Positions 12,158 to 63,373 of a stretch of DNA of 64,000 bases are shown piece after piece. The notes under the pieces were generated by a model that was not told the DNA's origin, did not search any database, and saw only the letters and a program-made list of their open reading frames with translations. Source of the stretch: Antedon mediterranea. Its lineage: Eukaryota; Echinodermata; Crinoidea; Comatulida; Antedonidae. Location: the NCBI RefSeq assembly GCF_964355755.1, contig NC_092673.1, forward strand, positions 10,791,001 to 10,855,000, written 5' to 3'. Made by a program: the position numbers and the translations under genes. Numbering within the stretch: position 1 is the first letter of the stretch; every line of letters begins with the position of its first letter.

Positions 12158-12279
12158 TGACAGTTTGGTACGCCATAGATTATGATATTGCAAATTGTCG
12201 TTAAAAAGTTAAATTTAATTTCAAATTTACGTTTAACTATTAATTTTACTGTCGGTTGCATATTATTATATATTTACAC
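12158..12279. other. Spacer between LINE end and giant palindrome, no gene seen
   Basis: A 122-bp AT-rich stretch separating the LINE A-run from the first base that matches the inverse arm at 63373. It has no counterpart in the right flank, which is why the palindrome edge is placed at 12280. Confidence 0.6.
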
Positions 12280-12580
12280 CCTCGAAAGATATAATTCAAC
12301 TTTGAACAAATAGTTATATGGGTGTTCACACAACTGACATATGGCGCCTCTCAAGTATCCATTCCCATGGCAGTGTATATAACCTTTCCACCTTCTCCAT
12401 CGTTGATTTTATTTATTATACATTGCTAATTGCAAATAATTGTTTATAGGTTTACATTGTTCTTTGTACTTTTAATGTACGTATTCAGTTTTTGGGTGGC
12501 TTGATAAGATTGATGTTAAAAAAATGCATTTTCCACTAATAAAATATGGAATTGTATCGAGAGAGTATCGTAATTTCGGG

Positions 12581-12651
12581 CAGAATGGTTTTCGGTCTGG
12601 AAAGGTCATTATTACACTGTCTGGAGTGTTGATATTTATACATCGAATGTT
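12581..12651 (+). repeat. 71-bp direct repeat within left arm, copy 1
   Basis: CAGAATGGTTTTCGGTCTGG through to CATCGAATGTT. It is repeated almost exactly at 15514-15584. The pair also exists, inverted, at 61516-61586 and 61681-61751, so this duplication predates the mirrored arms or is kept equal between them. Confidence 0.9.
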
Positions 12652-12759
12652 CGAATCGAATCGAATAGTAGTCCAGTAAAAATATGGTTGAACCTAGAAC
12701 AAATTGCAACAGAATTTTTTTAAATTTTATTTGGTTGATATGGTGAACATGAACATCAT

Positions 12760-13560
12760 ATCCAAAGTTTACCAAAATCGGACATCGGGAAGTGGGTTAA
12801 TTAGCATAAATTCAAAATGGCCGCCATTTGCTATTTTAAAGCCCCATATCTCCTTAACGGTTGGATTTAGACCACCTATATGCATTACGAGTAGATATAA
12901 ATGTAATATTAAACATTCTAACTGGCATATTTAAATTTCCATAGGACGTACCTATGACGTCATATGGTAGTTGTGACGTCATAAATTATGTTATAAATGC
13001 TTAAATGACATTATACTATGCGAACAATTTAGAAACTGCAAAAAAACAAGTTTCCTAACATTCTCCTTGTTGAAATGAACATAATTTCCAAAGTTGACCA
13101 AAATCGGACGTCAAGAAGTGTGTTAATTAGCATAAATTAAAAATGGCCGCTATTTACTATATCATTTTGAAGCCCTATATCTCCTTAATGGTGGTTTTAG
13201 ACCACCAAAGTGCATTGCGAGTAGATATAAATGTGACATTAAACTTCCCAATTAGCACATTTAAATTACCATATGACGTAAATATGACGTCATAAGGTAG
13301 TTGCGACGTCATATATTATGTTATAACTGCTTAAATGGCATTATCCCATGCTAAAAAATGTAGAAACTGCAGGAAAACAATTTTCTAACAATTTCCTGTT
13401 GAAATGAACATGATATCCTAAGTTCACCAAAATCAGATTTCAAGAGGGTCAATAATAGCATAAATTCAAAATACCATTTTGAAGCCCTGTATCTACTTAG
13501 CGGTTGGGTTTAGACAGCCTATGTGCATTACGAGTAGATATATATGTAAAAACCATTGAA
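12760..13560 (+). repeat. Subterminal ~300-bp tandem repeats, left end of the TIR transposon
   Basis: About 2.5 units, each running from a TTACCAAAATCGGAC-like start through AAATGGCCGCCATTTGC, AGACCACCTATATGCATTACG and GACGTCATATGGTAG, to a GTTGAAATGAACAT spacer. The third unit is degenerate. Inverted counterparts occupy ~14770-15345 at the other end. Confidence 0.88.
12955..12981. promoter_or_regulatory. CRE-type TGACGTCA pair in subterminal repeat
   Basis: Two perfect TGACGTCA octamers at 12955-12962 and 12974-12981. Further perfect copies lie at 13285-13292, 14782-14789, 15111-15118 and 15130-15137, plus one-mismatch sites such as 13304-13311. TGACGTCA is the CREB/ATF-type bZIP site. Recurrence follows from the repeat, so binding is only a possibility. 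Confidence 0.5.
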
Positions 13561-14769
13561 ATTTATCATTAAGTTTCCATTTACAAAATCTTATGAAAAT
13601 AGATATTCTACAGAACCGTATGAAAGGTGATCATCAACTGTATTTCCGAAACTGATTTGTACTCAAGCGCACATCTTTTAGAACTTTATCTCTTTAAATT
13701 GTTAAAGGAATAAAAAAAATATTGTAATGAGGCGATTGATTGTGGGTCAGGCTATTCAAACCCATCATTCCCACAAACTCATCTCAACTGAAATGAAAAT
13801 GATAAATGTCATACTGTAGTTTTCTGTATAGTCAGCATCTCCATTCTGCTCTTTCAAATTTGCTATTTCATTGCATCTGTTTGGTGTCGATCATTTATGA
13901 GACAACAACTTTTTATGATGTTTTATATAATGTTTATCTTTTGAATGCTGTTTCCAAGATTCAATGAGCATATAACAAGGACACTTCATCCTAGTGTTAA
14001 CTAGGATGAAGAACCATCAGTTAAAAGATACACATCAACGGAATCCAAAAAGGGGTAGTTAAGGTAATACAGTAATTTTCAAACTTGCCACTACTAATTA
14101 CAGTATTTTATTTTTCGACAAGACAGTATTCAACTTCCTTGACAAAAAATGTCAGAAAAATGGAATAGAAACTTTGAATGCAGATGGGGATCTATTAAAT
14201 ATCTTACTTTGCCATAATTAAGAAAAGCGATTGCGTTTTAAGACAGAAGAAGCAAAAAATAGTGGAATAATTGGTACTTAAAGAAAACATCTTAAGGAGC
14301 AAATTTGCAACATCTTTGTAATGCTCTGCACTTGCAAAGAAACAGGGGGGATGCATTCTATTCTAAGCGTAGACTTGCTGTGCCTACATGTATGGTGGAA
14401 GTATTTTGACGGCGCCAACATTACATTTTCTATGTATGTACTTTGGATTGGAAACTTACTGTGATCCAACTCCATATTTAGGATGGGGTCGAATTATTAA
14501 ATCCCAGACTCATTACTTAATTAAGAATCCTATTTCTTTAAATATATATGAGATATATGAGATATATATGCAGTTATAAAAAGTTGCAGTTGCAGAAAAT
14601 TAACTGGAATGTTCTATTGCATGTTGTGAAGGGTGGCCGAATAACTTCTGATACCCATGATCTTAACCTGGATGTGGTAAATGTTCTACTATTTTCATGA
14701 GATAAAAATCATTTTTTCCTTTCGGTTTCTATATTTTCCCCTTAGAATAATGGCAATTGAGCATTATTG
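13561..14769. other. Single-copy middle of the TIR transposon, no gene seen
   Basis: About 1.2 kb without tandem structure. Only short open frames (63-65 codons) on both strands occur, none with a recognisable domain. It is consistent with a non-autonomous element that lost its transposase gene. Confidence 0.6.
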
Positions 14770-15345
14770 TGACAAAATACATGACGTCATATGTCTTATT
14801 ACATCATAGGTACGTTATATGGCAATTTAAATATGCTAATTATAAAGTTTAATATCACATTTATATCTACTCTCAATGCACTTAGGTGGTCTAAAACCAA
14901 GCGTTAAGGAGATATGGAGCTTCAAAATGGTATGATAAATAGCGGCCATTTTGAATGTATGCTAATTAACCCACTTCCTGACGTCCGATTTTGGTAAACT
15001 TTGGAAATAATGTTCATTTTAACAAGGAGAATGTCAAGAAACATGTTTTCTTGCAGTCCCTAAATTGTTCGAATAGTATAATGTCATTTAAACAGTTATA
15101 ACATAATATATGACGTCACAACTACCATATGACGTCATAAGTACGTCATATGGAAATTTAAATATGCTAATTAGAATGTTTAATATCACATTTATATCTA
15201 CTCGTAATGCACTTAGGTGGTCTAAATCCAACCGTTAGAGAGATATGAGGCTTCAAAATAGCAAATGGCGGCCATTTTGAATTTATGCTAATTAACCTAC
15301 TTCCCGATGTCCGATTTTGGTAAACTTTGGATATGATATTCATTT
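14770..15345 (-). repeat. Subterminal ~300-bp repeats, right end of the TIR transposon
   Basis: About two units in reverse-complement orientation to those at 12760-13560, recognisable by GGCGGCCATTTTGAAT, TCCGATTTTGGTAAAC and CATATGACGTCATAAG. Long subterminal repeats are typical transposase-binding regions in several DNA transposon families; that role is inferred here. Confidence 0.85.
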
Positions 15346-15513
15346 GAACCATATTTACCAGACAAAACAAAAAAAAATTCTGTTGCAATTTGTTCTAGGT
15401 TCACACTATTTTTGACTTATCTTTACTGGACTATAGCCCCATTATTGAAGATTAACCGAAGAGGTCCTAGACAACTTGCATAATCTTGGAGAAGCCCAGA
15501 CCCTCAGTCAAAC

Positions 15514-15584
15514 CAGAATGGTTTTCGGTCTGGAAAGGTCATTATTACACTGTCTGGGGTGTTGATATTTATACATCGAATGTT
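15514..15584 (+). repeat. 71-bp direct repeat within left arm, copy 2
   Basis: Second copy of the 71-bp repeat at 12581-12651, differing at one position near its middle (GGGGTG against GGAGTG). Removing the 2.77-kb transposon brings the two copies ~165 bp apart, the same spacing as in the right arm. Confidence 0.9.
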
Positions 15585-15889
15585 TTATGGGCAATCAGTC
15601 CTGAACCTAGCCAACTACTACTGTAGGTTAAACGTTATTAGGTTTCGCAGGGTGGATGACTGTTATAATAAAACTAACGTGAGCAATCTTTTGTAGTCAG
15701 TTCTTTAAATTTTTTTTTTCAAATAATTATTATTTCTGCAATGACTATTATTATCTTAAAGATATATTGTCCCCTGAAAAAATGATTAGGTACGTAACGA
15801 AGATAAATTAATTTCTTTTTACATTAAATTGAGGGCGCTAAACATAAAATTTACGAGATCAAATACATGCAGCGAAAGCCAAAAAAATT

Positions 15890-16123
15890 TTTAAAATGTG
15901 CTCTCCCTGCGACCCCAGCCTTGGGGTTGTTTCCACCACATCATCACCAGATGCATTGCTAGTGCCTTCTCAAGATGTGTGGTGGAAAGGGGGATGTAAA
16001 TTCTGTGAACCCCAAACACAGTTGGTCGCATACCTTTAACTCTATTTCACCGACCAGCGTGGGAATCGAACCCACGACATACGTGTTGTCAAAACGACGC
16101 TCAGTCGTCTGAGCTAACTGGCC
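15890..16123 (-). mobile_element. tRNA-derived SINE-like sequence, left arm
   Basis: On the minus strand this reads as a tRNA-like head (16052-16123), then ~160 bp of body ending in a GGTCGCAGGGAGAGCACATT region. The body contains CCACCACACATCTTGAG and GAAGGCACTAGCAATGCATC. The counterpart at 60981-61200 has the same head and body. This copy has ~17 extra bases near 15911-15930 (ACCCCAGCCTTGGGGTTG). Head plus non-tRNA body is SINE architecture, but I cannot confirm other genomic copies from one window. Confidence 0.5.
16052..16123 (-). tRNA. tRNA-like fold, anticodon loop TTGACAA (GAC, Val-like), left
   Basis: The minus strand folds as a 72-nt cloverleaf: acceptor GGCCAGT/GCTGGTC, D-arm GCTC..GAGC, anticodon loop TTGACAA, and T-arm GTGGG TTCGATT CCCAC. 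A-box (TTAGCTCAGACGAC) and B-box (GGTTCGATTCC) are intact. In this copy one anticodon-stem base differs from the right copy (T for G), weakening that stem. GAC is an unusual anticodon for eukaryotic tRNA-Val and no CCA is expected in DNA, so I favour a SINE head or tRNA pseudogene over a working tRNA. Confidence 0.5.
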
Positions 16124-16958
16124 ATTTTGGTTCTAAAAAGGTTAATATGATATTTATGACGTAATGATGAATTACGTAATACACATATAAATAGACTATT
16201 ATAAACCATTCTGTCGTGTACTACTTTATGGCATAACGGGTAATGCTCAGTTTTGAGTGCTCCCAGTAGTGGGTTCGAACCTGTAAGGATATTTTTTTTT
16301 TATTTGAAAATAAATATTGTTTTTGAAAGTTTGATATTTTTATGGTTTTAAATGTCAAGCCTAACCAAGTGGACCTTTTTTTAAATCAGAAACAAAGTTG
16401 CATAACATCATTTTACATTGATTGATCATTTATTTCATATATATAGACTATTATCAGCTCCTCAGTCATCTACTGGTTTGTGGAGTAACGGGTAATGCTC
16501 AGGTTTGAGTGCTCTCAGTAGTGGGTTCGAACCTATACGGGTATTTTTTTTCTTTTTTTTTTAATTGAAAATAAATATTGTTTTTGAAAGTGAGATATTT
16601 TGAGGGTTGCAACTGTCAGGTCTAAACAAGTGAGCCTTTTTTAAAAACAGAAACAAAGTTGCATGGCATTATTTTTCATTGATTGATCATCCATTTCATA
16701 TAAATAGACTATTATCAGCTCTTCAGTCATATACTGGTTTGCGGCGTAACGGGTAATGCTCAGGTTTGAGTGCTCTGAGTAGTGGGTCGAACCTCTAGGG
16801 ATATTTTTTTTCTTTTTTTTTTAAATTGAAAATAAATATTGTTTTTGAAAGTGAGATATTTTTATGGTTTTAAATGTCAAGCCTAACCAAGTGGACTTTT
16901 TTAAAATCAGAAACAAAGTTGCATAACATCATTTTACATTGATGGATCATTCATTTCA

Positions 16959-17075
16959 TATAAATAGACTATTATCAGCTCTTCACTCATCTACTGGTTT
17001 GTGGCGTAACCGGTAGTGCTCAGGTTGGAGTTCTCGCAGTAGTGGGTTCGAACCTCTACGAATATTTTTTTCTTT
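16959..17075 (+). promoter_or_regulatory. Example Pol III-like unit: TATA, A-box, B-box, T-run
   Basis: One representative unit of the array: TATAAATAG at 16959-16967, TGGCGTAACCGG at 17002-17013 (fits the A-box pattern TRGYNNARNGG), GGTTCGAACC at 17045-17054 (B-box pattern GGTTCGANTCC, one base short), and a T-run from 17065. If read by Pol III the transcript would be ~75-85 nt. The layout is direct observation; transcription is inference. Confidence 0.6.
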
Positions 17076-17449
17076 CTTTTTTTTTAATTGAAAATAAATA
17101 TTGTTTTTGAAAGTGAGATATTTTGAGTGTTGTAAATGTCAGGCCTAAACAAGTGGACCTTTTTTAAAATCAGAAACAAAGTTGCAGGGCATTATTTTTC
17201 ATTGATTGATCATTCATTTCATATAAATAGACTATTATCAGCTCCTCAGTCATCTACTGGTTTGTGGCGTAACGCAGAATGCTCAGGTTTGAGTGCTCTC
17301 AGTAGTGGGCTCGAACCTCTAGGGATTTTTTTTTTAAATTGAAAATAAATATTGTTTTTGAAAGTGAGATATTTTGAGGGTTGTAAATATCAGGCCTAAA
17401 CAAGTGGACCTTTTTTAAAATCAGAAACAAAGTTGCATGGCATTATTTT

Positions 17450-18945
17450 TCATTGATTTATTATTTATTTCATATAAATAGTGTATTATCAGCACGTCAG
17501 TCATCTACTGGTTTGTGGCGTAACGGGTAATACCCAGGTTTGAGTGCTCTCAGTAGCGGGTTCCAACCTCTAGGGATATTGCTTTTTTTTTTCTTATTGA
17601 AAATAAATATTTTTTTTGAAAATGAGATATTTTTTAGGGTTGTGAATGTCAGGCCTAAACAAATGGATCTTTTTTAAAATCAGAAACAAAGTTGCATGGC
17701 ATTATTTTTCATTGATTGATCATTCATTTCATATAAATAGACTATTATCAGCTCTTCAGTCATCTACTGGTTTGTGGCGTAACGGGTAATGCTCATGTTT
17801 GAGTGCTCTGAGTAGTGGGTCGAACCTCTAGGGATATTTTTTTTCTTTTTTTTTTAAATTGAAAATAAATATGGTTTTTGAAAGTGAGATATTTTTAGGG
17901 TTGCAACTGTCAGAACTAAACAAGTGAACCTTTTTTAAAATCAGAAACAAAGTTGCATGGCATTATTTTTCATTGATTGATCATTCATTTCATATATATA
18001 GACTATTATCAGCTCCCCAGTCATCTACTGGTTTGTGGCGTAACGGGTAATGCTCAGGTTTGAGGGCTCTCAGTAGTGGGGTCGAACCTATAAGGGTATT
18101 TTTTTTTTTTTTTTTTTAATTGAAAATAAATATTGTTTTTGAAAGTGAGATATTTTGAGGGTTGTAAATATCCGGCCTAAACAAGTGGACCTTTTTTAAA
18201 ATCAGAAACAAAGTTGCATGGCATTATTTTTCATTGATTGATTATTTATTTCATATAAATAGTGTATTATCAGCTCGTCAGTCATCTACTGGTTTGTGGC
18301 GTAACGGGTAATACCCAGGTTTGAGTGCTCTCAGTAGCGGGTTCCAACCTCTAGGGATATTGCTTTTTTTTTCTTATTGAAAATAAATATTTTTTTTGAA
18401 AATGAGATATTTTTTAGGGTTGTGAATGTCAGGCCTAAACAAATGGATCTTTTTTAAAATCAGAAACAAAGTTGCATGGCATTATTTTTCATTGATTGAT
18501 CATTCATTTCATATAAATAGACTATTATCAGCTCTTCAGTCATCTACTGGTTTGTGGCGTAACGGGTAATGCTCAGGTTTGAGTGCTCTGAGTAGTGGGT
18601 CGAACCTCTAGGGATATTTTTTTTCTTTTTTTTTTAAATTGAAAATAAATATGGTTTTTGAAAGTGAGATATTTTTAGGGTTGCAACTGTCAGAACTAAA
18701 CAAGTGAACCTTTTTTAAAATCAGAAACAAAGTTGCATGGCATTATTTTTCATTGATTGATCATTCATTTCATATATATAGACTATTATCAGCTCCCCAG
18801 TCATCTACTGGTTTGTGGCGTAACGGGTAATGCTCAGGTTTGAGGGCTCTCAGTAGTGGGGTCGAACCTATAAGGGTATTTTTTTTTCTTTTTTTTTTAA
18901 TTGAAAATAAATATTGTTTTTGAAAGTGAGATATTTTGAGGGTTT
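17450..18945 (+). repeat. Three-unit higher-order repeat in left tRNA-like array
   Basis: A block of three units (~17450-18165) is repeated almost exactly at ~18229-18945, a shift of about 780 bp, including unusual variants such as GTGTATTATCAGC, GGGTAATACCCAGG and GGTTCCAACC. A second such duplication links ~21400-22260 with ~23280-24140. These indicate unequal exchange or segmental amplification within the array. Confidence 0.85.
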
Positions 18946-21900
18946 TAAATGTCAAGCCTAACCAAGTGGACCTTTTTTTAAATCAGAAACAAAGTTGCAT
19001 AACGTCATTTTACATTGATGGATCATTCATTTCATATAAATAGACTAATATCAGCCCTTCACTCTTCTACTGGTTTGTGGCGTAACCGGTAATGCTCAGG
19101 TTTGAGTTCTCTCAGTAGTGGGTGGTACGAACCTCTAGGAATTTTTTTTTCTTTTTTTTTTATTTGAAAATAAATATTGTTTTTGAAAGTGAGATATTTT
19201 TATGGTTTTAAATGTCAAGCCTATCCAAGTGGACCTTTTTTTAAATCAGAAACAAAGTTGCATAACATCATTTTACATTGATTTATTATTCATTTCATAT
19301 AAATTGAATATTATCAGCACTTCACTCATCTACTAGTTTGTGGCGTAACCGGTAATGCTCAGGTTTGAGTTCTCTCAGTAGTGGGTTCGAACCTCTAGGG
19401 ATATTTTTTTTCTTTTTTTTTTTAAATTGAAAATAAATATTGTTTTTGAAAGTGAGATATTTTGAGGGTTGTAAATGTCAGGCCTAAACAAGTGGACCTT
19501 TTTTTAAATCAGAAACAAAGTTGCATAACATCATTTTACATTGATGGATCATTCATTTCATATAAATAGACTATTATCAGCTCTTCACTCATCGACTGGT
19601 TTGTGGCGTAACGGATAATGCTCAGGTTTGAGTGCTCTCAGTAGTGGGTTCGAACTTCTAGAGATTTTGTTTTTTTTTAAATTGAAAATAAATATTTTTT
19701 TTGAAAGTGAGATATTTTGAGTGTTGTAAATATCAGGCCTAAAGAAGTGGACCTTTTTTAAAATCAGAAACAAAGTTGCATGGCATTATTTTTCATTGAT
19801 TGATCATTCATTTCATATAACTAGACTATTATCAGTTCTTCACTCATCTACTGGTTTGTGGCGTAACCGGTAGTGCTCAGGTTTGAGTGCGCTCAGTAGT
19901 GGGTTCGAACCTCTAGGTATTTTTTTTTTTAAATTGAAAATAAATATTGTTTTTGAAAGTGAGATATTTTGAGGGTTGTAAATATCAGGCCTAAACAAGT
20001 GGACCTTTTTTAAAATCAGAAACAAAGTTGCATGGCATTATTTTTCATTGATTTATTATTTCTTTCATATAAATAGACTATTATCAGCTCTTCAGTCATA
20101 TACTGGTTTGCGGCGTAACGGGTAATGCTCAGGTTTGAGTTCTCTCAGTAGTGGGTTCGAACCTCTAGGATTATTTTTTTTCTTTTTTTTTTGTTTGAAA
20201 ATAAATATTGTTTTTGAAAGTGAGATATTTTTATGGTTTTAAATGTCAAGCCTAACCAAGTGGACCTTTTTTTAAATCAGAAACAAAGTTGCATAACATC
20301 ATTTTACATTGATGGATCATTCATTTCATATAAATAGACTATTATCAGCTCTTCACTTATCTACTGGTTTGTGGCGTAACCGGTAGTGCTCAGGTTTGAG
20401 TTCTCGCAGTAGTGGGTTCGAACCTCTACGAATATTTTTTTTCTTTCTTTTTTTTTAATTGAAAATAAATATTGTTTTTGAAAGTGAGATATTTTGAGTG
20501 TTGTAAATGTCAGGCCTAAACAAGTGGACCTTTTAAAATCAGAAACAAAGTTGCATGGCATTATTTTTCATTGATTGATCATTCATTTCATGTAAATAGA
20601 CTATTATCAGCTCCTCAGTCATCTACTGGTTTGTGGCGTAACGGATAATGCTCAGGTTTGAGTGCTCTCAGTAGTGGGTTTGAACCTCTAGGGATTTTTT
20701 TTTTTAAATTGAAAATAAATATTGTTTTTGAAAGTGAGATATTTTGAGGGTTGTAAATATCAGGCCTAAACAAGTGGACCTTTTTTAAAATCAGAAACAA
20801 AGTTGCATGGCATTATTTTTCATTGATTTATTATTTATTTCATATAAATAGACTATTATCAGCTCTTTAGTCATATACTGGTTTGCGGCGTAACGGGTAA
20901 TGCTCAGGTTTGAGTAATTTCAATAGTGGGTTCGAACTTCTAGGGATATTTTTTTTCTTTTTTTTTTTGGTTGAAAATAAATATTGTTTTTGAAAGTGAG
21001 ATATTTTGAGGGTTGCAACTGTCAGGCCTAAACAAGTGAACCTTTTTTAAAATCAGAAACAAAGTTGCATGGCATTATTTTTCATTGATTGATCATTCAT
21101 TTCATATATATAGACTATTATCAGCTCCCCAGTCATCTACTGGTTTGTGGCGTAACGGGTAATGCTCAGGTTTGAGGGCTCTCAGTAGTGGGGTCGAACC
21201 TATAAGGGTATTTTTTTTCTTTTTTTTTTATTTGAAAATAAATATTGTTTTTGAAAGTGAGATATTTTGAGGGTTGCAACTGTCAGGCCTAAACAAGTGA
21301 ACCTTTTTTGAAATCAGAAACAAAGTTGCATGGCATTATTTTTCATTGATTGATCATCTATTTCATATAAATAGACTATTATCAGCTCTTCAATCATATA
21401 CTGGTTTGCGGCGTAACGGGTAATGCTCAGGTTTGAGTGATTTCAATAGTGGGTTCGAACTCCTAGGGATATTTTTTTTCTTTTTTTTTTATTTGAAAAT
21501 AAATATTGTTTTTGAAAGTGAGATATTTTTATGGTTTTAAATGTCAAGCCTAACCAAGTGGACATTTTTTTAAATCAGAAACAAAGTTGCATAACATCAT
21601 TTTACATTGATGGATCATTCATTTCATATAAATAGACTATTATCAGCTCTTCACTCATCTACTGGTTTGTGGCGTAACCGGTAATGCTCAGGTTTGAGTT
21701 CTCTCAGTAGTGGGTTCGAACCTCTAGGATTAGTTTTTTTCTTTTTTTTTTGTTTGAAAATAAATATTGTTTTTGAAAGTGAGATATTTTTATGGTTTTA
21801 AATGTCAAGCCTAACCAAGTGGACCTTTTTTTAAATCAGAAACAAAGTTGCATAACATCATTTAACATTGATGGATCATTCATTTCATATAAATAGACTA

Positions 21901-24829: not shown

Positions 24830-25620
24830 AAATAAAAGGGTCTAAATTTGGCCATTTTTCGAAAATTTCCCCGAGGGGGACCATAAGATTTTTTTTCGAA
24901 AAATGGCGAAAATTTACACTTTTTAAAATTCGAAAATTCAATAATTATGCTATAATATTGCCATTTTTGGAAATATATTGTGCTAACATCTTCTTATAGA
25001 GCCATAGTAATTAGTTATGTCAAAAAATAAAAGGGTTAAAATTTGGCAATTTTTGCGAAAATTTTCCTGGGGGGGACCATAGGAATTTTTTCGAAAAATG
25101 ACTAAAATTTCCACTTTTTAAAATTCAAAAATTATGCTATAATATTGCCATTTATGCACATATATTGTGCTGACATCATCTTATAGAGCCATAGCAACTA
25201 CTTTTGTCAAAATATAAAAGGGTCGAAAATGGCAAAAATTTTACACTTTTTAAAATTAAATAATTATGCTATAATTTTGCCATTTATGGACATTTATTGT
25301 GTTAACATCATCTTATAGAGCCATCGTAACTAGTTATGTTAAAAAGGAAAAGGGTCAACATTTTTGCCAGATTTCGAAAATTTCCCTCTACGGGACTATA
25401 AGAAGTTTTTTGAAAAGGGGCCAAAATTTCCAATTTTTAAAATTCTATAATTATGATATAATATTGCCATTTATGCAAATATATTGTGTTAACATCATCT
25501 TATAGAGCCATAGTAACTAGTTATGTCAAAAAATAAAAGGGTCGAAATTTAGCCATTTTTTGAAAAAATTTTCTGCTGGGGACCATAAGATTTTTTTTTC
25601 GAAAAATGGCGAAAATTTAC
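24830..25620 (+). repeat. X repeat, left block (about 4 units)
   Basis: Tandem units of ~130-195 bp: AAATAAAAGGGTC, TTTGGCCATTTTTCGAAAAT, CCATAAGATTTTTTTTCG, TTATGCTATAATATTGCC, then ATCTTATAGAGCCATAGTAA. The third unit is shorter. It has no gene. It joins the tRNA-like array at ~24829 and the CT minisatellite at 25620, and both junctions are mirrored in the right half. Confidence 0.92.
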
Positions 25621-25810
25621 TCTCTCTCGCTGATCTATCTCTCTCTCGCTGATCTATCTCTCTCTCGGTGATCTATCTCTCTCGCTGATCTCTCTCTCTC
25701 TCGCTGATCTATCTCTCTCTCTCGCTGATCTATCTCTTTCTCTCGCTGATCTATCTCTCTCTCGCTGATCTATCTCTCTCTCTCGCTGATTTATCTCTCT
25801 CTCTCGCTGA

Positions 25811-25841
<31 letters not shown>

Positions 25842-28362: not shown

Positions 28363-28393
<31 letters not shown>

Positions 28394-31034: not shown

Positions 31035-31680
31035 TGATCTTCCTGAAAAAACTGTAATTTAAAGCAAAAAAATGGTCAAATTGTCTGGAAGCCAATGAGT
31101 TTTTGGGTAATTTAACTGTTTATTTTTTCTTTTTATAGGTTAAATAATTTTTTCCCCGTTCTTTTTTCTTATGGAAGTGAACAACTTCATTAAAACTGCA
31201 TATTGGCCTATTTAAAGTCCGATTTCAAAAATCTTTATTTTTCATGATTTTGAGAGACAATATACATCTTTAATTTTAAAATAAAGTATATACATTTTAT
31301 AAGATTAATAAATAATATTTTAAACGGTAAAATATTAAATAGCCCCATTACTACAATGTTACTTAAGTAGTAAGCAGGGCTCTATAAAAACCATTTTCCG
31401 ATTTTTTAATATAAAATACATTATAATAAAAATTATTACTGAAGACGTAGATATTAAATTGTCAAAGTATGAATACTGATCATATCTGATATTTTCAGGG
31501 GTCCCTGATATTATAAAATACTATTAATATGATAGCAATAGAGACGGAGGCATGCTCAGCCATAATAACTGAACCAATAACAAATGTACAAGATTCACGC
31601 GCTGTCATCATGTATAGTTTCACCCTGTCTTGCCCTTTTCACGTTTAAACTCCGCCTTCTAATTTAAATGTTAAAACCGA
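31035..31680 (+). repeat. Non-coding core sequence, copy 2
   Basis: Near-identical to 1015-1652. It is AT-rich with no gene recognised. It forms the left end of the asymmetric centre of the giant palindrome. Confidence 0.9.
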
Positions 31681-31740
31681 GCCTACTCAAGCGTGGGACA
31701 AAATGTTTTAAAAAACGGTTTGTCCCACGCTTGAGTAGGC
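31681..31740. repeat. Perfect 22-bp inverted repeat with 16-nt loop
   Basis: The 22 bases 31681-31702 (starting GCCTACTCAAGCGTGGGAC) are the exact reverse complement of 31719-31740, with a 16-nt spacer ATGTTTTAAAAAACGG. It would extrude a strong hairpin or cruciform. It sits exactly between the core block and the palindrome array. Confidence 0.97.
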
Positions 31741-31744
31741 AAGT

Positions 31745-41625: not shown

Positions 41626-41662
<37 letters not shown>

Positions 41663-42037: not shown

Positions 42038-42071
<34 letters not shown>

Positions 42072-42675: not shown

Positions 42676-42711
<36 letters not shown>

Positions 42712-43662: not shown

Positions 43663-43709
<47 letters not shown>

Positions 43710-52900: not shown

Positions 52901-53867
52901 TTTTAAATCAGAAACAAAGTTACATAACATCATTTTACATTGATGGATCATTCATTTCATATAAATAGACTATTATCAGCTCTTCACTCATCTACTGGTT
53001 TGTGGCGTAACCGGTAATGCTCAGGTTTGAGTTCTCTCAGTAGTGGGTTCGAACCTCTAGGAATATTTTTTTTCTTTTTTTTTTGTTTGAAAATAAATAT
53101 TGTTTTTGAAAGTGAGATATTTTTATGGTTTTAAATGTCAAGACTAACCAAGTGGACCTTTTTTTAAATCAGAAACAAAGTTGCATAACATCATTTTACA
53201 TTGATGGATCATTTATTTCATATAAATAGACTATTATCAGCTCTTCACTCATCTACTGGTTTGTGGCGTAACCGGTTGTGCTCAGGTTTGAGTTCTTGCA
53301 GTTGGTGGGTACGAACCTCTAGGAATTTTTTTTTTCTTTTTTTTTAATTGAAAATAAATATTGTTTTTGAAAATGAGATATTTTGAGTGTTGTAAATGTC
53401 AGGCCTAAACAAGTGGACCTTTTTTAAAATCAGAAACAAAGTTGCATGGCATTATTTTTCATTGATTGATCATTTATTTCATATATATACACTATTATCA
53501 GCTCCTCAGTCATCTACTGGTTTTTGGCGTAACGGGTAATGCTCAGGTTTGAGTGCTCTCAGTAGTGGGTTCGAACCTATACGGATATTTTTTTAATTTT
53601 TTTTTTAATTGAAAATAAATATTGTTTTTGAAAGTGAGATATTTTGAGGGTTGCAACTGTCAGGCCTAAACAAGTGAACCTTTTTTAAAATCAGAAACAA
53701 AGTTGCATGGCATTATTTTTCATTGATTGATCATCCATTCATATAAATAGAATATTATCTGCTCTTCAGTCATATACTGGTTTGCGGCGTAACGGGTAAT
53801 GCTCAGGTTTGAGTGATTTCAATAGTGGGTTCGAACTTCTAGGGAAATTTTTTTTTATTTTTTTTTT
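49990..53867 (+). repeat. tRNA-like ~260-bp array, right block B (about 16 units, plus)
   Basis: Same family but opposite orientation to the flanking blocks. Both edges are sharp: CCCACTACTCA to CTATTATCAGCTC at ~49990, and a T-rich tract to CACTTTCAAAAC at ~53868. Internal duplications include ~52086-52735 repeated at ~52741-53390, where a unit is broken at TGAGTGTTG followed by TTTGCGGCG. Confidence 0.9.
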
Positions 53868-56800
53868 TCACTTTCAAAACAAATATTTATTTTCAAATAA
53901 AAAAAAAGAAAAAAAAAATTCCTAGAGGTTCGTACCCACTACTGAGAGACCTCAAACCTGAGCATTACCGGTTACGCCACAAACCAGTAGAAGAGTGAAG
54001 GGCTGATATTAGTCTATTTATATGAAATGAATGATCCATTAATGTAAAATGATGTTATGCAACTTTGTTTCTGATTTTAAAAAAGGTCCACTTGGTTAGG
54101 CTTCACATTTAAAACCACAAAAATATCTCACTTTCAAAAACAATATTTATTTTCAAATAAAAAAAAAATAAAAAAAATATCCCTAGAAGTTCGAACCCAC
54201 TATTGAAATCACTCAAACCTGAGCATTACCAGTTACGCCGCAAACCAGTATATGACTGAACAGCTGATAATAGTCTATTTATATGAATGGATGATCAATC
54301 AATGAAAAATAATGCCATGCAACCTTGTTTCTGATTTTAAAAAAGGTTCACTTGTTTGGGCCTGACAGTTGCAACCCTCAAAATATCTCACTTTCAAAAA
54401 CAATATTTATTTTCAATTAAAAAAAAAATAAAAAAAATACCCGTATAGTTTCGAACCCACTACTGAGAGCACTCAAACCTGAGCATTACCCGTTACGCCA
54501 CTAACCAGTAGATGACTGAGGAGCTGATAATTGTGTATATATATGAAATAAATGATTAATCAATGAAAAATAATGCCATGCAACTTTGTTTCTGATTTTA
54601 AAAAAGGTCCACTTGTTTAGGCCTGACATTTACAACCCTCACAATATCTCACTTTCACAAACCAAATTTATTTGCAATTGAAAAAAAAAAGACTGAGGAG
54701 CTGATAATAGTCTATATATATGAAATGAATGATCAATCAATGAAAAATAATGCCATACAACTTTGTTTCTGACTTTAAAAAAGGTTCACTTGTTTAGGCC
54801 TGAAAGTTGCAACCCTCAAAATATCTCACTTTCAAAAACCATATTTATTTTCAATTTAAAAAAAAAAAGAAAAAAAATACCCTTATAGGTTCGAACCCAC
54901 TACTGATAGCACTCAAACCTGAGCATTACCAGTTACGCCACAAACCAGTACATGACTGAAGAGCTGATAATAGTCTATTTATATGAAATGAATGATCAAT
55001 CAATGAAAAATAATGCCATGCAACTTTGTTTCTGATTTTAAAAAAGGTCCACTTGTTTTGGCCTGACATTTACAACACTCAAAATATCTCACTTTCAAAA
55101 ACAATATTATTTTCAATTTAAAAAAAGAAAGAAAAAAAATATTCCTAGAGGTTCGAACCCACTACTGCGAGAACTCAAACCTGAGCACTACCGGTTTCGC
55201 CACAAACCAGTAGATGAGTGAAGAGCTGATAATAGTCTATTTATATGAAATGAATGATCAATCAATGTAAAATGATGTTATGCAACTTTGTTTCTGATTT
55301 TAAAAATGGTCCACTTGGTTAGGCTTGACATTTAAAACCATAAAAATATCTCACTTTCAAAAACAATATTTATTTTCAAAAAAAAAAAAAAGAAAAAAAA
55401 ATTCTTAGAGGTTCGTACCCACTACTGAGAGAACTCAAACCTGAGCATTACCGGTTACGCCACAAACCAGTAGAAGAGTGAAGGGCTGATATTAGTCTAT
55501 TTATATGAAATGAATGATCCATCAATGTAAAATGATGTTATGCAACTTTGTTTCTGATTTTAAAAAAGGTCCACTTGGTTAGGCTTCACATTTAAAACCA
55601 TAAAAATATCTCACTTTCAAAAACAATATTTATTTTCAAATAAAAAAAAAATTAAAAAAATATCCCTAGAAGTTCGAACCCACTATTGAAATCACGCAAA
55701 CCTGAGCATTACTCGTTACGCCGCAAACCAGTATATGACTGAAGAGCTGATAATAGTCTATTTATATGAAACGGATGATAAATCAATGAAAAATAATGCC
55801 ATGCAACTTTGTTTCTGATTTCAAAAAAGGTTCACTTGTTTAGGCCTGACAGTTGCAACCCTCAAAATATCTCACTTTCAAAAACAATATTTATTTTCAT
55901 TTAAAAAAAAAAGAAAAAAAATACCCTTATAGGTTCGAACCCACTACTGAGAGCACTCAAACCTGAGCATTACCCGTTACGCCACAAACCAGTAGATGAC
56001 TGAGGAGCTGATAATAGTCTATATATATGAAATAAATGATCAATCAATGAAAAATAATGCCATGCAACTTTGTTTCTGATTTTAAAAAAGGTTCACTTGT
56101 TTAGGCCTGACAGTTGCAACCCTCAAAATATCTCACTTTCAAAAACCATATTTATTTTCAATTTAAAAAAAAAAAGAAAAAAAATATCCCTAGAGGTTCG
56201 ACCCACTACTCAGAGCACTCAAACCTGAGCATTACCCGTTACGCCACAAACCAGTAGATGGCTGTAGAGCTGATAATAGTCTATTTATATGAAATGAATG
56301 ATCAATAAATGAAAAATAATGCCATGCAACTTTGTTTCTGATTTTAAAAAAGATCCATTTGTTTAGGCCTGACATTCACAACACTCAAAAATATCTCATT
56401 TTCAAAAAAAATATTTATTTTCAATAAGAAAAAAAAAAGCAATATCCCTAGAAGTTGGAACCCGCTACTGAGAGCACTCAAACCTGGGTATTACCCGTTA
56501 CGCCACAAACCAGTAGATGACTGAAGAGCTGATAATACACTATTTATATGAAATAAATAATAAATCAATGAAAAATAATGCCATGCAACTTTGTTTCTGA
56601 TTTTAAAAAAGGTCCACTTGGTTAGGCTTGACATTTAAAACCATAAAAATATCTCACTTTCAAAAACAATATTTATTTTCAAATAAAAAAAATAAGAAAA
56701 AAAAAATTCTTAGAGGTTCGTACCCACTACTGAGAGAACTCAAACCGGAGCATTACCGGTTACGCCACAAACCAGTAGAAGAGTGAAGGGCTGATATTAG

Positions 56801-59800
56801 TCTATTTATATGAAATGAATGATCCATCAATGTAAAATGATGTTATGCAACTTTGTTTCTGATTTTAAAAAAGGTCCACTTGGTTAGGCTTCACATTTAA
56901 AACCATAAAAATATCTCACTTTCAAAAACAATATTTATTTTCAAATAAAAAAAAAATTAAAAAAATATCCCTAGAAGTTCGAACCCACTATTGAAATCAC
57001 GCAAACCTGAGCATTACCCGTTACGCCGCAAACCAGTATATGACTGAAGAGCTGATAATAGTCTATTTATATGAAACGGATGATAAATCAATGAAAAATA
57101 ATGCCATGCAACTTTGTTTCTGATTTCAAAAAAGGTTCACTTGTTTAGGCCTGACAGTTGCAACCCTCAAAATATCTCACTTTCAAAAACAATATTTATT
57201 TTCATTTAAAAAAAAAGAAAAAAAATACCCTTATAGGTTCGAACCCACTACTGAGAGCACTCAAACCTGAGCATTACCCGTTACGCCACAAACCAGTAGA
57301 TGACTGAGGAGCTGATAATAGTCTATATATATGAAATAAATGATCAATCAATGAAAAATAATGCCATGCAACTTTGTTTCTGATTTTAAAAAAGGTTCAC
57401 TTGTTTAGGCCTGACAGTTGCAACCCTCAAAATATCTCACTTTCAAAAACCATATTTATTTTCAATTTAAAAAAAAGAAAGAAAAAAAATATCCCTAGAG
57501 GTTCGACCCACTACTCAGAGCACTCAAACCTGAGCATTACCCGTTACGCCACAAACCAGTAGATGGCTGTAGAGCTGATAATAGTCTATTTATATGAAAT
57601 GAATGATCAATAAATGAAAAATAATGCCATGCAACTTTGTTTCTGATTTTAAAAAAGATCCATTTGTTTAGGCCTGACATTCACAACACTCAAAAATATC
57701 TCATTTTCAAAAAAAATATTTATTTTCAATAAGAAAAAAAAAAGCAATATCCCTAGAGGTTGGAACCCGCTACTGAGAGCACTCAAACCTGGGTATTACC
57801 CGTTACGCCACAAACCAGTAGATGACTGAAGAGCTGATAATACACTATTTATATGAAATAAATAATAAATCAATGAAAAATAATGCCATGCAACTTTGTT
57901 TCTGATTTTAAAAAAGGTCCACTTGTTTAGGCCTGATATTTACAACCCTCAAAATATCTCACTTTCAAAAACAATATTTATTTTCAATTTAAAAAAAAAT
58001 CCCTAGAGGTTCGAACCCACTACTGAGAGCACTCAAACCTGAGCATTATCCGTTACGCCACAAACCAGTAGATGACTGAGGAGCTGATAATAGTCTATTT
58101 ATATGAAATGAATGATCAATCAATGAAAAATAATGCCCTGCACCTTTGTTTCTGATTTTAAAAAAGGTCCACTTGTTTAGGCCTGACATTTACAACACTC
58201 AAAATATCTCACTTTCAAAAACAATATTTATTTTCAATTAAAAAAAAAGAAAGAAAAAAAATATTCGTAGAGGTTCGAACCCACTACTGCGAGAACGCAA
58301 ACCTGAGCACTACCGCTTACGCCACAAACCAGTAGATGAGTGAAGAGCTGATAATAGTCTATTTATATCAAATGAATGATCCATCAATGTAAAATGATGT
58401 TATGCAACTTTGTTTCTGATTTAAAAAAAGGTCCACTTGGTTAGGCTTGACATTTAAAACCATAAAAATATCTTACTTTCAAAAACAATATTTATTTTCA
58501 AATAAAAAAAAAGAAAAAAAATATCCCTAGAAGTTCGAACCCGCTATTGAAATCACTCAAACCTGAGAATTACCCGTTACGCCGCAAACCAGTATATGAC
58601 TGAAGAGCTGATAATAGTCTATTTATATGAAATAAATAATAAATCAATGAAAAATAATGCCATGCAACTTTGTTTCTGATTTTAAAAAAGGTCCACTTGT
58701 TTAGGCCTGATATTTACAACCCTCAAAATATCTCACTTTCAAAAACAATATTTATTTTCAATTTAAAAAAAAAAATCGCTAGAGGTTCGAACCCACTACT
58801 GAGAGCACTCAAACCTTAGATTTATCCGTTACGCCACAAACCAGTAGATGACTGAGGAGCTGATAATAGTCTATATATATGAAATGAATGATCAATCAAT
58901 GAAAAATAATGCCATGCAACTTTGTTTCTGATTTTAAAAAAGTTCCACTATTTTAGGCCTGACATTTACCACCCTCAAAATATCTCACTTTCAAAAACCA
59001 TATTTATTTTCAATTTAAAAAAAAAAAGAAAAAAAATATCCGTAGAGGTTCGACCTACTACTCAGAGCACTCAAACCTGAGCATTACCCGTTACGCCACA
59101 AACCAGTAGATGACTGAAAAGCTGATAATAGTCTATTTATATGAAATGAATGATCAATCAATGAAAAATAATGCCATGCAACTTTGTTTCTGATTTAAAA
59201 AAAGATCCATTTGTTTAGGCCTGACATTCACAACTATTAAAAATATCTCATTTTCAAAAAAAATATTTATTTTCAATAAGAAAAAAAAAGCAATATCCCT
59301 AGAGGTTGGAACCCGCTACTGAGAGCACTCAAACCTGGGTATTACCCGTTACGCCACAAACCAGTAGATAACTGAAGAGCTGATAATAGTCTATTTATAT
59401 GAAATTAATGATCAATCAATTAAAAATAATGCCATGCAACTTTGTTTCTGATTTTAAAAAAGGTTCATTTGTTTAGGCCTGACATTTACAACCCTCAAAA
59501 TATCTCACTTTCAAAAAAAAATATTTATTTTCAATTTAAAAAAGAAAGAAAAGAAATATCCCTAGAGGTTCGAACCCACTACTGCGAGCACTCAAACTTG
59601 AGCATTACCCGTTACGCCTCAAACCAGTAGATGACTGAAGAGCTGATAATACTCTATTTATATGAAATGAATAATAAATCAATGAAAAATAATGCCTTGC
59701 AACTTTGTTTCTGATTTTAAAAAAGGTTCACTTGTTTAGGCCTGACATTTACAACCCTCAAAATATCTTTCTTTCAAAAACAATATTTATTTTAAATTTA

Positions 59801-60903
59801 AAAAAAAAAAAAAAAATATTCGTAGAGGTTCGAACCCACTAGTGAGAGCACTCAAACTTGAGCATTACCCGTTACGCCACAAACCAGTAGATGACTGAAG
59901 AGCTGATAATACTCTATTTATTTGAAATAAATAATAAATCAATGAAAAATAATGCCATGCAACTTTGTTTCTGATTTAAAAAAAAGGTCCACTTGTTTAG
60001 GCCTGATATTTACAACCCTCAAAATATCTCACTTTCAAAAACAATATTTATTTTCAATTTAAAAAAAAAATCCCTAGAGGTTCAAACCCACTACTGAGAG
60101 CACTCAAACCTGAGCATTATCCGTTACGCCACAAACCAGTAGATGACTGAGGAGCTGATAATAGTCTATTTATATGAAATGAATGATCAATCAATGCAAT
60201 GCAAACTTTGTTTCTGATTTTAAAAAAGGTCCACTTGTTTAGGCCTGACATTTACAACCCTCAAAATATCTCACTTTCAAAAACAATATTTATTTTCAAT
60301 TTAAAAAAAAAAAGAAAAAAAATATTCGTAGAGGTTCGAACCCACCACTGAGAGAACTCAAACCTGAGCACTGCCGGTTACCCCACAAACCAGTAGATGA
60401 CTGAAGAGCTGATAACAGTCTATTTATATGAAACGAATGATCAATCAATGAAAAATAATGCCATGCAACTTTGTTTCTGATTTTTAAAAAGGTTCACTTG
60501 TTTAGGCCTGGCATTTACAACCCTCAAAATATCTCACTTTCAAAAACAATATATATTTTCAATAAAAAAAAAAAAGAAAAAAAGTTCCCGTAGAGTTTCG
60601 AACCCACTACTGAGAGCACTCAAACCTGAGTATTACCCGTTACGCCACAAACCAGTAGATGACTGAAGAGCTGATAATAGTCTATTTATATGAAAAGAAT
60701 GATCAATCATTTTCTGATTTTAAAAAAATGTCCACTTGTTTAGGCCTGACATTTACTACCCTCAAAATATCTCACTTTCAAAAACAATATTTATTTTCAA
60801 ATAAAAAAAAAAATATCCTTATAGGTTCGAACCCACTACTGGGAGCACTCAAAACTGAGCATTACCGTTATTCCATAAAGTAGTACACGCCAGAACAGTT
60901 TAT
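53868..60903 (-). repeat. tRNA-like ~260-bp array, right block C (about 27 units, minus)
   Basis: Minus-strand units continuing to the right terminal arm. A five-unit block (~55390-56610) recurs at ~56695-57915, a shift of 1305 bp. A unit is truncated near 54690. The last unit (~60840-60903) is the divergent type that also begins the left array, confirming mirrored order. Confidence 0.92.
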
Positions 60904-60980
60904 AATAGTCTATTTATAAGTGTATTACGTAATTCATCATTACGTCATAAATATCATATTAAACTTTTTAAAACCAAAAT

Positions 60981-61052
60981 GGCCAGTTAGCTCAGACGAC
61001 TGAGCGTCGTGTTGACAACACGTATGTCGTGGGTTCGATTCCCACGCTGGTT
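60981..61052 (+). tRNA. tRNA-like fold, anticodon loop TTGACAA (GAC, Val-like), right
   Basis: The mirrored copy of 16052-16123. Arms: acceptor GGCCAGT/GCTGGTT (two or three wobble pairs), D-arm GCTC/GAGC, anticodon arm TCGTG TTGACAA CACGT (four good pairs), and T-arm GTGGG TTCGATT CCCAC. It is better paired in the anticodon stem than the left copy. It is likely the head of a SINE-like sequence running to ~61200. Confidence 0.5.
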
Positions 61053-61200
61053 GGTGAAATAGAGTTAAAGGTATGCGACCAACTGTGTTTGGGGTTCACA
61101 GAATTTACGTCCCCCTTTCCACCACACATCTTGAGAAGGCACTAGCAATGCATCTGGTGATGATGTGGTCGCAGGGAGAGCACATTTTAAAAATGTTTTT
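60981..61200 (+). mobile_element. tRNA-derived SINE-like sequence, right arm
   Basis: tRNA-like head followed by body motifs GAAATAGAGTTAAAGGTATG, CTGTGTTTGGGGTTCACAG and GAAGGCACTAGCAATGCATC, ending near GGTCGCAGGGAGAGCAC. It points away from the adjacent tRNA-like array units, just as in the left arm. Confidence 0.5.
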
Positions 61201-61515
61201 GGCTTTCGCTGCATGTATTTGATCTCGTAAATTTTATGTTTAGCGCCCTCAATTTAATGTAAAAAGAAATTAATTTATCTTCGTTACGTACCTAATCACT
61301 TTTTCAGGGGACAATATATCTTTAAGATAATAATAGTCATTGCAGAAATAATAATTATTTGAAAAATAAAATTTAAAGAACTGACTACAAAAGATTGCTC
61401 ACGTTAGTTTTATTATAACAGTCATTCACCCTGCGAAACCTAATAACCTTTAACCTACAGTAGTAAGTAGGCCAGGTAGCCTACGTTGGCTAGGTTCAGG
61501 ACTGATTGCCCATAA

Positions 61516-61586
61516 AACATTCGATGTATAAATATCAACACCCCAGACAGTGTAATAATAACCTTTCCAGACCGAAAACCATTCTG
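61516..61586 (-). repeat. 71-bp repeat, right arm, inner copy
   Basis: Reverse complement of the 71-bp repeat in the left arm, with one substitution in the ACCTTTCC region (AATAACC for AATGACC). Confidence 0.88.
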
Positions 61587-61680
61587 GTTTGACTGAGGTT
61601 CTGGGCTTCTCCAAGATTACGCAAGTTGTCTAGGACCTCTTCGGTTAATCTTCAATAATGGAGCTATTCGATTCGATTCG

Positions 61681-61751
61681 AACATTCGATGTATAAATAT
61701 CAACACCCCAGACAGTGTAATAATGACCTTTCCAGACCGATAACCATTCTG
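61681..61751 (-). repeat. 71-bp repeat, right arm, outer copy
   Basis: Second right-arm copy, directly beside the empty target site of the 2.77-kb transposon and next to GATTCGATTCGAACATTCG. Confidence 0.88.
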
Positions 61752-61916
61752 CCCGAAAGTACGATACTCTCTCGATACAATTCCATATTTTATTAGTGGA
61801 AAATGCATTTATTTAACATCAATCTTATCAAGCCACCCAAAAACTGAATACGTACATTAAAAGTACAAAGAACAATGTAAACCTATAAACAATTATTTGC
61901 AATGAGCAATGTATAA

Positions 61917-62357
61917 TCTATATATAAATTATGGTTAATTCTGACATAGGCGAGCACAATGCAAAAACTTCTCTACAAATCTCCGCCTTGGATACCTACC
62001 TTATCTATCTGAGATGTACCGCGAAACGTAGATTTGATAACATTAGTGTGCACGCCGACGCTATTGTTCCATATTTATATCTTAGGAAGATATTATAAAG
62101 AGTTTTTTAACAACATTTATGATTTCAACATTAGATTTTCCTCTCAATTTCAATTCTTCCCGGTCAAAGTAATTTCCGGGTTTAAGATAAGTTCACCTTG
62201 AGTTTCAAATATTTTCTCTCTTTTAAACACAAGGGAGCAGTTAAAATAATAGATTTGACCCTAAAGGTGACTGGAAACAGGCACTTTCCATCAATCAATA
62301 CAGTGTCCCTTTGGAAGACGAAAAATATGTCAGAATTAACCATAATTTATATATAGA
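61917..62357. repeat. 441-bp segment with perfect 32-bp inverted ends
   Basis: The 32 bases at 61917-61948 (TCTATATATAAATTATGG...) are the exact reverse complement of 62326-62357. The interior has no gene. It may be a MITE-like segment sharing its left end with the Helitron-like insertion, or an inverted duplication of that insertion's 5' terminus. Confidence 0.85.
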
Positions 62358-62770
62358 TACCGCGCGTGTGTGAAGGTACAGTAGTTAAATAATAGGAATT
62401 ATACTGCAAATTAATAAAGATCAAATTAAATATACGCCATAAAGAATCAGAATATATTGTGGGGAATAGTATTATAAAATTACATAGGGAGATTTGATGA
62501 TAAGACATTTTTCGAGTGAAATCCCGATACTTTAGCTGAGTTTTATTGAGTAAGCTTGCAGGAATAACTGTAGGCTATCTTCCTGTGTCCCATTAGGACC
62601 AAGATGTCTGCCCATGTTGTTGCAAGCCGTAATGTCTTCTTTCTTGGGCCCACTCTGTCACGGCAGTTAGTTTCAAAAGATGATTAAATAAAATAATGTA
62701 TTAATAATTATTAGGATGGTATTCATTTGAATAAACGCCTCTCAAATAAAACATCACTTTGAATAATAAA

Positions 62771-62791
62771 CCCTCCCCCCCCCCCCCCCCC
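62771..62791. repeat. Poly(C) tract
   Basis: CCCT followed by 17 C. On the minus strand this is a G-run able to form G-quadruplex structures. Length is prone to sequencing error. It lies within the Helitron-like insertion. Confidence 0.9.
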
Positions 62792-63199
62792 AACCCAACT
62801 ATCTAATAAACGTCCATCCACATATTTATAATAACACAATTATACTATTTGTAGTAGAATTCACCGCACTGTTATCTACAATTTACCAAGCATTTGTTAT
62901 TCTTTTTTAGCACTTTTCATATCTATTAGAGGATTTCATTTGATTATAAATGTTACCATATTATTAAAACTAAAAAATTTAACATATATCCCTCGAATAA
63001 GCACCTCCCTCAAATGACCTCCTCCTCCCCAAAGGGCCTACCAAACAATAAAAACTATACTTTAAAATGTTATTAATCATCTAAAACACTGTGATACAAA
63101 GTAGTTTAGTTTTACGAATGTCAAGCATTTTCAATAATGGTAACCGACAGAAAACGTATAAGGAGAACATTATCATTCCGAGAACCATCGTCTACACTT

Positions 63200-63237
63200 C
63201 CTAGAGGGGGAGCGAGCGAAGCGAGCTCACCCTCTAG
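63200..63237. terminator. Terminal hairpin of the Helitron-like element
   Basis: Eight-base stem CTAGAGGG/CCCTCTAG, an internal bulge, then GAGC/GCTC around a GAGCGAAGCGA loop. In Helitrons a 3' hairpin near the CTRR end acts as the rolling-circle transposition terminator; that role is inferred by analogy. Confidence 0.6.
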
Positions 63238-63373
63238 TAAATAAAATCAACGATGGAGAAGGTGGAAAGGTTATATACACTGCCATGGGAATGGATACTT
63301 GAGAGGCGCCATATGTCAGTTGTGTGAACACCCATATAACTATTTGGTCAAAGTTGAATTATATCTTTTGAGG

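Follow-up and report, generated by a model that had tools for sequence, protein, structure and literature searches.

Does the mirror-ordered stack of tandem repeats on contig C4 of the crinoid Antedon mediterranea represent a single giant transposable element, or was it put together in another way? The sequence analysed, hereafter the window, is the 64,000-nt stretch C4:10791001-10855000 of a genome of 354.4 Mb in 18 contigs, ten of which measure 22-41 Mb and one of which (C9) measures at most 27.0 Mb, by difference. Our analysis favours an answer that we consider likely: this is the inverted, head-to-head joining of two composite satellite units within a satellite block of ~0.7 Mb, which is probably (peri)centromeric. 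Each unit has the order CT minisatellite (-), preTIR, terminal inverted repeat (TIR), 20-bp array, U1, arm, armInB with a tRNA-Val-like gene, 261-bp array, X repeat, CT minisatellite (+), gap, 20-bp array and 87-bp satellite.

The mirrored module order with matching junctions, as described in the initial annotation, was upheld by self-comparison of the arms, X and the 261-bp array. In the outer arm, 12276-12418 matched the reverse complement of 63235-63376 (97%) and 12415-12668 that of 61664-61917 (98%). The inner arm (15433-16200 and the reverse complement of 60904-61667) was 92.8% identical with indels and 98.0% identical over aligned bases, and X (24896-25620 and the reverse complement of 43937-44650) was 94.1% identical. 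Both arms measured ~1.16 kb after one insert was taken from each, bearing out their reported equality. Overall, the halves differ by ~2% in the non-array modules.

The 261-bp array was compared using monomers covering at least 200 of the 261 positions. The left array contains 33 monomers, all (+); the right one contains, from the outside inwards, blocks of 26 (-), 14 (+) and 17 (-). Monomer types follow a similar order in both halves, read as approximately D-C-F-G-E-B-A. When monomer order was shuffled 500 times, the mirrored score between the left array and the outer right block was reached by none of the shuffles and the anti-mirrored score by all 500. The mirrored score with the inner right block was reached by 13 shuffles, and the scores with the middle block by 54 and 133, depending on direction. 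These results indicate that both halves descend from one higher-order array rather than from recent mirror copying; the mirrored monomer order is partly due to a shared higher-order repeat. The middle block (49990-53867) is a smaller inverted duplication within the 261-bp array, its monomers matching the adjoining inner array in mirror order with a mean of 0.934 over 11 pairs.

The initial annotation had placed the ends of a 51-kb palindromic element, possibly a giant foldback repeat, at 12280 and 63373. The latter is the last base before a long terminal repeat (LTR) retrotransposon that occupies 63374-68030. At its borders, which were checked, TGAGG lies before and CGAGG behind, and its two LTRs (63374-64674 and 66730-68030; TG..CA) are 99.5% identical over 1298 aligned bases. 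The apparent right end was made by this later insertion, and behind it the mirror image continues with U1b, U1a, the 20-bp array, TIR, preTIR and a CT array. To the left of 12276 lie U1b (12151-12275), a non-LTR insertion and then U1a (7014-7780). A genome probe with 12280-12660 gave 52 candidates, 40 of which were scored, two being the window's own arms. We fetched 20 of the other 38 places and thus compared 22 arms. Unit sequence went on outside armOut, as U1b and U1a, in all 20 fetched copies, so the paired ends proposed to recur elsewhere did not do so. A 51-kb stretch with element ends was rejected accordingly, the left end being internal and the right one an insertion point.

The mirror order in fact reaches past both TIRs and spans ~86 kb in all. 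The right flank was followed, in window coordinates, by twelve 200-bp samples over the last 14 kb. From left to right these contained, always (-), the 87-bp satellite (73-77 kb), gap (78 kb) and CT (79-86 kb), the left counterpart being window positions 1-6239 (CT+, gap+, 20-bp+, 87-bp+, CT-). Directly outside the two TIRs, the flank (preTIR) is one sequence in mirror image (97%). Since both termini have the same mirrored flank, the structure did not insert as one piece. What stands of the earlier description is a mirror-ordered stack of several repeat families, an unusual inverted arrangement that does involve a foldback element; what does not stand is the 51-kb stretch as a foldback element. 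The features are as follows, in window coordinates.

1-1005 (+): last part of the preceding unit's CT minisatellite, which has a 19-bp repeat; the array start is at 8794 in fetched stretch L029
1015-1700 (+): gap segment of the preceding unit, belonging to the 3' interior of the 3.4-kb foldback transposon and 98.2% identical to 31040-31700 over aligned bases
1708-2004 (+): s20, the foldback transposon's 20-bp tandem array, in the preceding unit
2005-3743 (+): 87-bp satellite, preceding unit
3743-6239 (-): GA (= CT-) minisatellite outside the terminus
6240-6412 (+): preTIR, flank of the foldback terminus; mirror image at 69522-69695
6413-6460 (+): foldback transposon TIR, TA followed by CGGGGCGCCGTATGGGACATTGC...; mirrored at 69474-69521
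6461-7009 (-): s20, the 20-bp tandem array, here opposite in direction to the 3' copy
7014-7780 (+): U1a, 5' internal part of the foldback transposon
~7781-12150 (+): non-LTR retrotransposon insertion with open frames in several pieces and an RVT_1 reverse transcriptase match at 10590-11927, which like the repeat content is in keeping with a eukaryote; absent here in the other fetched copies
12151-12275 (+): U1b, further foldback transposon sequence; the previously proposed left end lies at its edge
12276-12668 (+): armOut, foldback transposon interior
12669-15433 (unstranded): nested palindromic insertion of 2.76 kb with TIR TAGTCCAGTAAA (approximate in its last bases); the right arm has the empty site
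15433-15783 (+): armInA, foldback transposon interior
15784-16183 (+): armInB, satellite component with a tRNA-Val-like gene at 16050-16124 (-)
16184-24829 (+): 261-bp satellite array of approximately seven monomer types
24830-25619 (+): X repeat
25620-31032 (+): CT minisatellite, internal
31033-31756 (+): gap, 3' internal part of the foldback transposon
31757-32024 (+): 20-bp array (s20), 3' copy, passing directly into the 87-bp satellite without a TIR
32025-40802 (+): 87-bp satellite, broken by an insertion at ~38167-39793
40803-43937 (-): CT minisatellite reversed; the unit orientation changes here
43938-45575 (-): X repeat, mirrored
45575-60918 (-): 261-bp array, mirrored, with the local inverted segment 49990-53867 (+)
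60921-61667 (-): armInB and armInA, mirrored, with a tRNA-Val-like gene at 60980-61054 (+)
61664-63373 (-): armOut, mirrored, broken by a Helitron-like insertion at 61917-63237
63374-64000 (+): part of the first LTR of the LTR retrotransposon that ends outside the window at 68030

Three of the insertions have further recognizable features. The palindromic insertion at 12669-15433 holds internal direct repeats of ~330 bp. The one in the 87-bp array (38167-39793) has the TIR TTAAAGGGGG... and is bordered by TTAA. The Helitron-like, non-autonomous insertion at 61917-63237 starts with TC and ends with CTAG behind a GC-rich hairpin at an A^T site, its empty site being in the left arm.

What had been called a terminal arm is the interior of a dispersed foldback DNA transposon of ~3.4 kb without insertions, found at 16 of the 20 fetched loci. 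These small elements have the order TIR, 20-bp array (-), U1a, U1b, armOut, armInA, gap, 20-bp array (+), TIR, the TIRs and inverted 20-bp arrays together making up long terminal inverted repeats with tandem repeats. Both TIRs lay within the fetched stretch at 11 of the 16 loci and one TIR at five; at L028, the 3' end falls outside the fetched stretch. A TA adjoins the TIRs, but as TA is self-complementary it may belong to the TIR instead of being a target-site duplication. No frame longer than 150 aa was found within the small element at the four loci scanned; longer frames were all outside. We regard the 3.4-kb element as a foldback transposon with a 2-bp TA that is at best non-autonomous. 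At one locus (L013), a 1357-aa open frame, probably of a retrotransposon, starts at ~1392 in the flank, outside the small element's TIR at 6374.

The 40 scored armOut matches lay at 40 places across C1-C11, accompanied by 22 short secondary matches. Their span (147.6 Mb, compared with a random mean of 170.5 Mb; 568 of 5000 random placements) was that of a dispersed sequence. No match was found among 14 flanks from nine small loci. Seven small loci (L016-L019, L023, L027 and L028) sit in one carrier repeat and have the same flanks, with carrier copies L017, L018 and L019 being 99.9% identical over 4.6 kb. Two carrier-borne copies, at 32.716 and 32.807 Mb on C4, point towards each other over a distance of 90 kb.

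At the remaining four fetched loci (L009-L012), as in both window arms, the arm is joined to satellites, and all six of these arms lie on C4 and C10. A block of armInB, 261-bp array, X and CT here replaces ~94 bp between the armInA and gap of the small elements. The order armInA, armInB, 261-bp array was the same throughout; in L009 and the window, whose sequence is long enough to show it, X and CT follow. The armInA/armInB junction was at the same place in 6/6 arms and the armInB/261-bp junction in 5/6, L010 being different. Junctions of 261-bp/X and X/CT were constant in the three cases seen, and those of CT/gap and s20/87-bp in two of two. The 261-bp array is a single monomer in L009 and kilobases long elsewhere, which indicates that array length is free to change.

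All six satellite-joined arms group in a single clade (100/99), in which the right window arm is sister to L011 at C4:10.283 Mb (100/99), a grouping favoured by 10 sites; no site favours pairing the two window arms. The left window arm grouped with L009 at one site, and L010 with L012 at five.

We sampled the surroundings with 200-600 bp pieces, 60 on C10 and 52 on C4. Modules were present in 13/20, 17/20 and 15/20 samples on C10 and in 11/20, 15/20 and 12/12 on C4, extending over 8.6-10.02 Mb (~1.4 Mb) and 10.17-10.88 Mb (~0.7 Mb), respectively. On C10, CT- at 8.60 Mb is followed by the 87-bp satellite (+) at 8.80-9.77 Mb and then by 261-bp (-), arm (-), TIR (-), preTIR (-) and CT+ up to 9.85 Mb. 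Further right come 87-bp (-) at 9.87 Mb, 261-bp (+) at 9.89-9.91 Mb and CT- at 9.93 and 10.0 Mb; four samples from 10.05 Mb on contained no module. Of the 38 samples from 8.80 to 9.7746 Mb, 30 contained the 87-bp satellite, always (+), which makes it a long tandem array.

The left part of the C4 block starts with the 87-bp satellite from 10.17 Mb, CT- at 10.20, CT+ at 10.255-10.27 and arm (+) at 10.283 Mb. Its middle has 261-bp (+) at 10.30 and 10.35, 87-bp (+) at 10.40, arm (+) at 10.418 and CT+ at 10.44-10.58 Mb. Before the window lie 87-bp (-) at 10.61-10.65, CT- at 10.68-10.71, 261-bp (-) and armInB (-) at 10.73-10.77 and arm (-) at 10.779 Mb. Across this longer part of C4, then, most modules are (+) on the left and (-) on the right, with the exception of 87-bp (-) at 10.356-10.368 Mb. 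No module was seen in samples at 10.15, 10.88, 10.91 and 10.95 Mb.

An armInB probe of the genome gave 436 candidates, 40 of which were scored. Apart from an outlier on C6, these fell into one region each on C1-C5 and C7-C10 (9 of the 11 large contigs), the regions on C7, C8 and C10 being spread over 1.3-2.5 Mb. Summed over the eight contigs that have more than one match, they span 6.0 Mb, compared with a random mean of 151.6 Mb; none of 5000 random placements reached this value, the dispersed armOut serving as the control. Five of the scored copies match from base 1, all of them beside foldback arms; the others begin at base 3 or later, which indicates that the satellite exists without the transposon. 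The 87-bp probe gave 2722 candidates, and the best 40, which were scored, lay on C4, C7 (13.50 Mb), C8 (21.07 Mb), C13 and C15. The places on C7 and C8 fall in or beside their armInB regions. The small contigs C13 and C15 carry parallel series of 87-bp matches at a near-constant offset of ~48.8-49.2 kb, which are probably unplaced or haplotypic satellite. Judging from sequence, the C4 block is probably (peri)centromeric heterochromatin, its centromeric identity being inferred.

The initial annotation had also described a tRNA-like array. The tRNA-like feature sits elsewhere: armInB holds a tRNA-Val(GAC)-like gene at 16050-16124 (-) and 60980-61054 (+), with Rfam scores of 45.0 and 47.7 bits, and such a gene was present in all six satellite-joined arms. 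At gathering scores, Rfam gave nothing in the window beyond these two genes. The 261-bp monomer was rejected as a tRNA, having box-like motifs only and a fold no better than that of shuffled sequences (z -0.11; 86 of 200 shuffles as good). Its first 60 columns are 0.91-0.94 conserved, and most others are as high, up to 0.97.

The course of events that we propose for the head-to-head junction would begin with a 3.4-kb foldback transposon being joined to the armInB, 261-bp, X and CT satellites between armInA and gap. Units and arrays would then have been amplified on C4 and C10, and the mirror image would most likely have arisen when units already in place recombined through their inverted CT arrays. 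Later insertions (non-LTR, Helitron-like, LTR and two TIR elements) would have broken the arms and core. The CT minisatellite is present in both orientations within the unit, and orientation switches near the window coincide with 19-bp CT arrays (40803-43937, and CT+/X-/CT+ at 3358-9600 in L029), which makes CT-array recombination the most likely source of the mirror. Such an inversion of pre-existing units would account for the mirror image as well as for how the arms are related and why the arrays differ in length.

Several results weigh against this account or the evidence used for it. Inversion of one unit predicted gap+, s20+ and 87+ to the right of 72 kb; we found 87-, gap- and CT-, so that the inverted stretch would have to be longer or another process involved. 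Typing the CT array at 40803-43937 as flank or internal failed its controls, as known arrays were not separated, and an apparent switch there was dropped. The two 87-bp/CT- junctions (3743 and 40803) differ, and the left CT/preTIR junction is missing some bases that are common to the right one and L029. In armInB alone, the two window arms are closest to each other (98.4%, compared with 98.1% for the right arm and L011). Clustering like that of armInB would be expected of any tandem repeat, and among its 40 scored matches C11 had none, C6 one 85% outlier (3.0 Mb) and C2 a single match. The armOut survey covered 20 of the 38 places outside the window.

Other explanations were weighed against the same evidence. 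A giant non-autonomous foldback transposon of ~63 kb, running from TIR to TIR (6413-69521) and moved as one, would account for the inverted TIRs and 20-bp arrays at both ends and the adjoining TA, and a TIR-bearing arm with 261-bp array, then 87-bp satellite, does recur on C10. However, the flanks outside both TIRs are mirror images, with the mirror order going on for ~16 kb further right in the samples, and the six satellite-joined arms among the 22 seen are all in the C4 and C10 blocks. Nor are the window's two arms closest relatives, and we consider this explanation highly improbable. The kinship of the arms also bears on a recent inverted duplication of one arm, by template switching or breakage-fusion, with later divergence. 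Mirror order over ~86 kb around a 9.8-kb spacer is what such an event would leave, and the armInB comparison agrees with it. The sister relationship of the right arm to L011 speaks against it, although gene conversion between arms could blur this signal, as do the unequal lengths of the CT and 261-bp arrays in the two halves; a duplication of this kind seems unlikely.

A false inverted join in the assembly might be suspected in so repetitive a region, the more so as the matching 87-bp series of C13 and C15 indicate that the satellite is not fully placed. Yet the two halves have diverged in their non-array modules, carry different insertions and have distinct array lengths, and the order 87-bp (+), 261-bp (-), arm (-), TIR (-) recurs on C10, making an artefact extremely improbable. 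A further possibility goes beyond the head-to-head junction in giving it a function. Fission yeast inverted-repeat centromeres carry tRNA genes, and by analogy the blocks, one per chromosome, could be true centromeres, those on C4 and C10 holding a composite of transposon and satellites with opposed arms (tRNA-Val-like gene plus an array with tRNA-box-like motifs) around an 87-bp core, as an enlarged multi-family counterpart of the fission yeast plan kept invertible by the CT minisatellite. We regard this as very unlikely. Its probability is lowered by L067, the one arm-free armInB copy available over the gene part, which is degraded there, matching at 85% with three gaps, and gave no tRNA call.

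Read as a junction of two inverted composite units, the locus provides one readable case, junctions included, of a foldback transposon and several satellites turned into one amplifying unit, and also of how such units come to lie in opposite orientations. That orientation switches occur at the CT minisatellite is an idea concrete enough to be tested. Should the blocks indeed be centromeres, an armInB probe would mark them on most chromosomes of the species.

The FB and TU foldback elements have long inverted ends with tandem repeats. The 3.4-kb element resembles them, and Galileo, in its long inverted ends holding tandem repeats; it differs in having TA as its target site, and what transposes is not the 51-kb structure. 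Tetris of Drosophila virilis shows that a foldback element can seed a satellite (TIR-220) in heterochromatin (PMC4079207). Tetris, too, is non-autonomous, has tandem repeats in its TIRs and is tied to heterochromatic satellite arrays. The satellite there is the element's own TIR repeat, whereas in the present locus several other satellites are joined to a transposon that they split, with units opposed, and the target site is TA instead of 8-10 bp (PMC4079207). In Candida tropicalis, centromeres have inverted repeats around a single-copy core, and arms of the same centromere resemble each other more than those of different ones (PMC4741521). The likeness to these and to fission yeast centromeres lies in inverted repeats around a core and, on most large contigs, a single armInB region where those centromeres have one locus per chromosome (PMC4741521); the differences are that the core here is satellite, that the blocks are ~10-100 times larger and that the paired arms of the palindrome are not each other's closest relatives. 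The core of the present locus consists of 87-bp satellite, and the right window arm is nearest to L011 and not to the left arm; since L011 is on the same chromosome as the window, this kinship tests arm pairs, not chromosomes. In the literature searched, most subscription journals being outside it, no title pointed to inverted units in which satellites split a foldback element. The present case shares traits with both Tetris and the C. tropicalis centromeres and belongs to neither.

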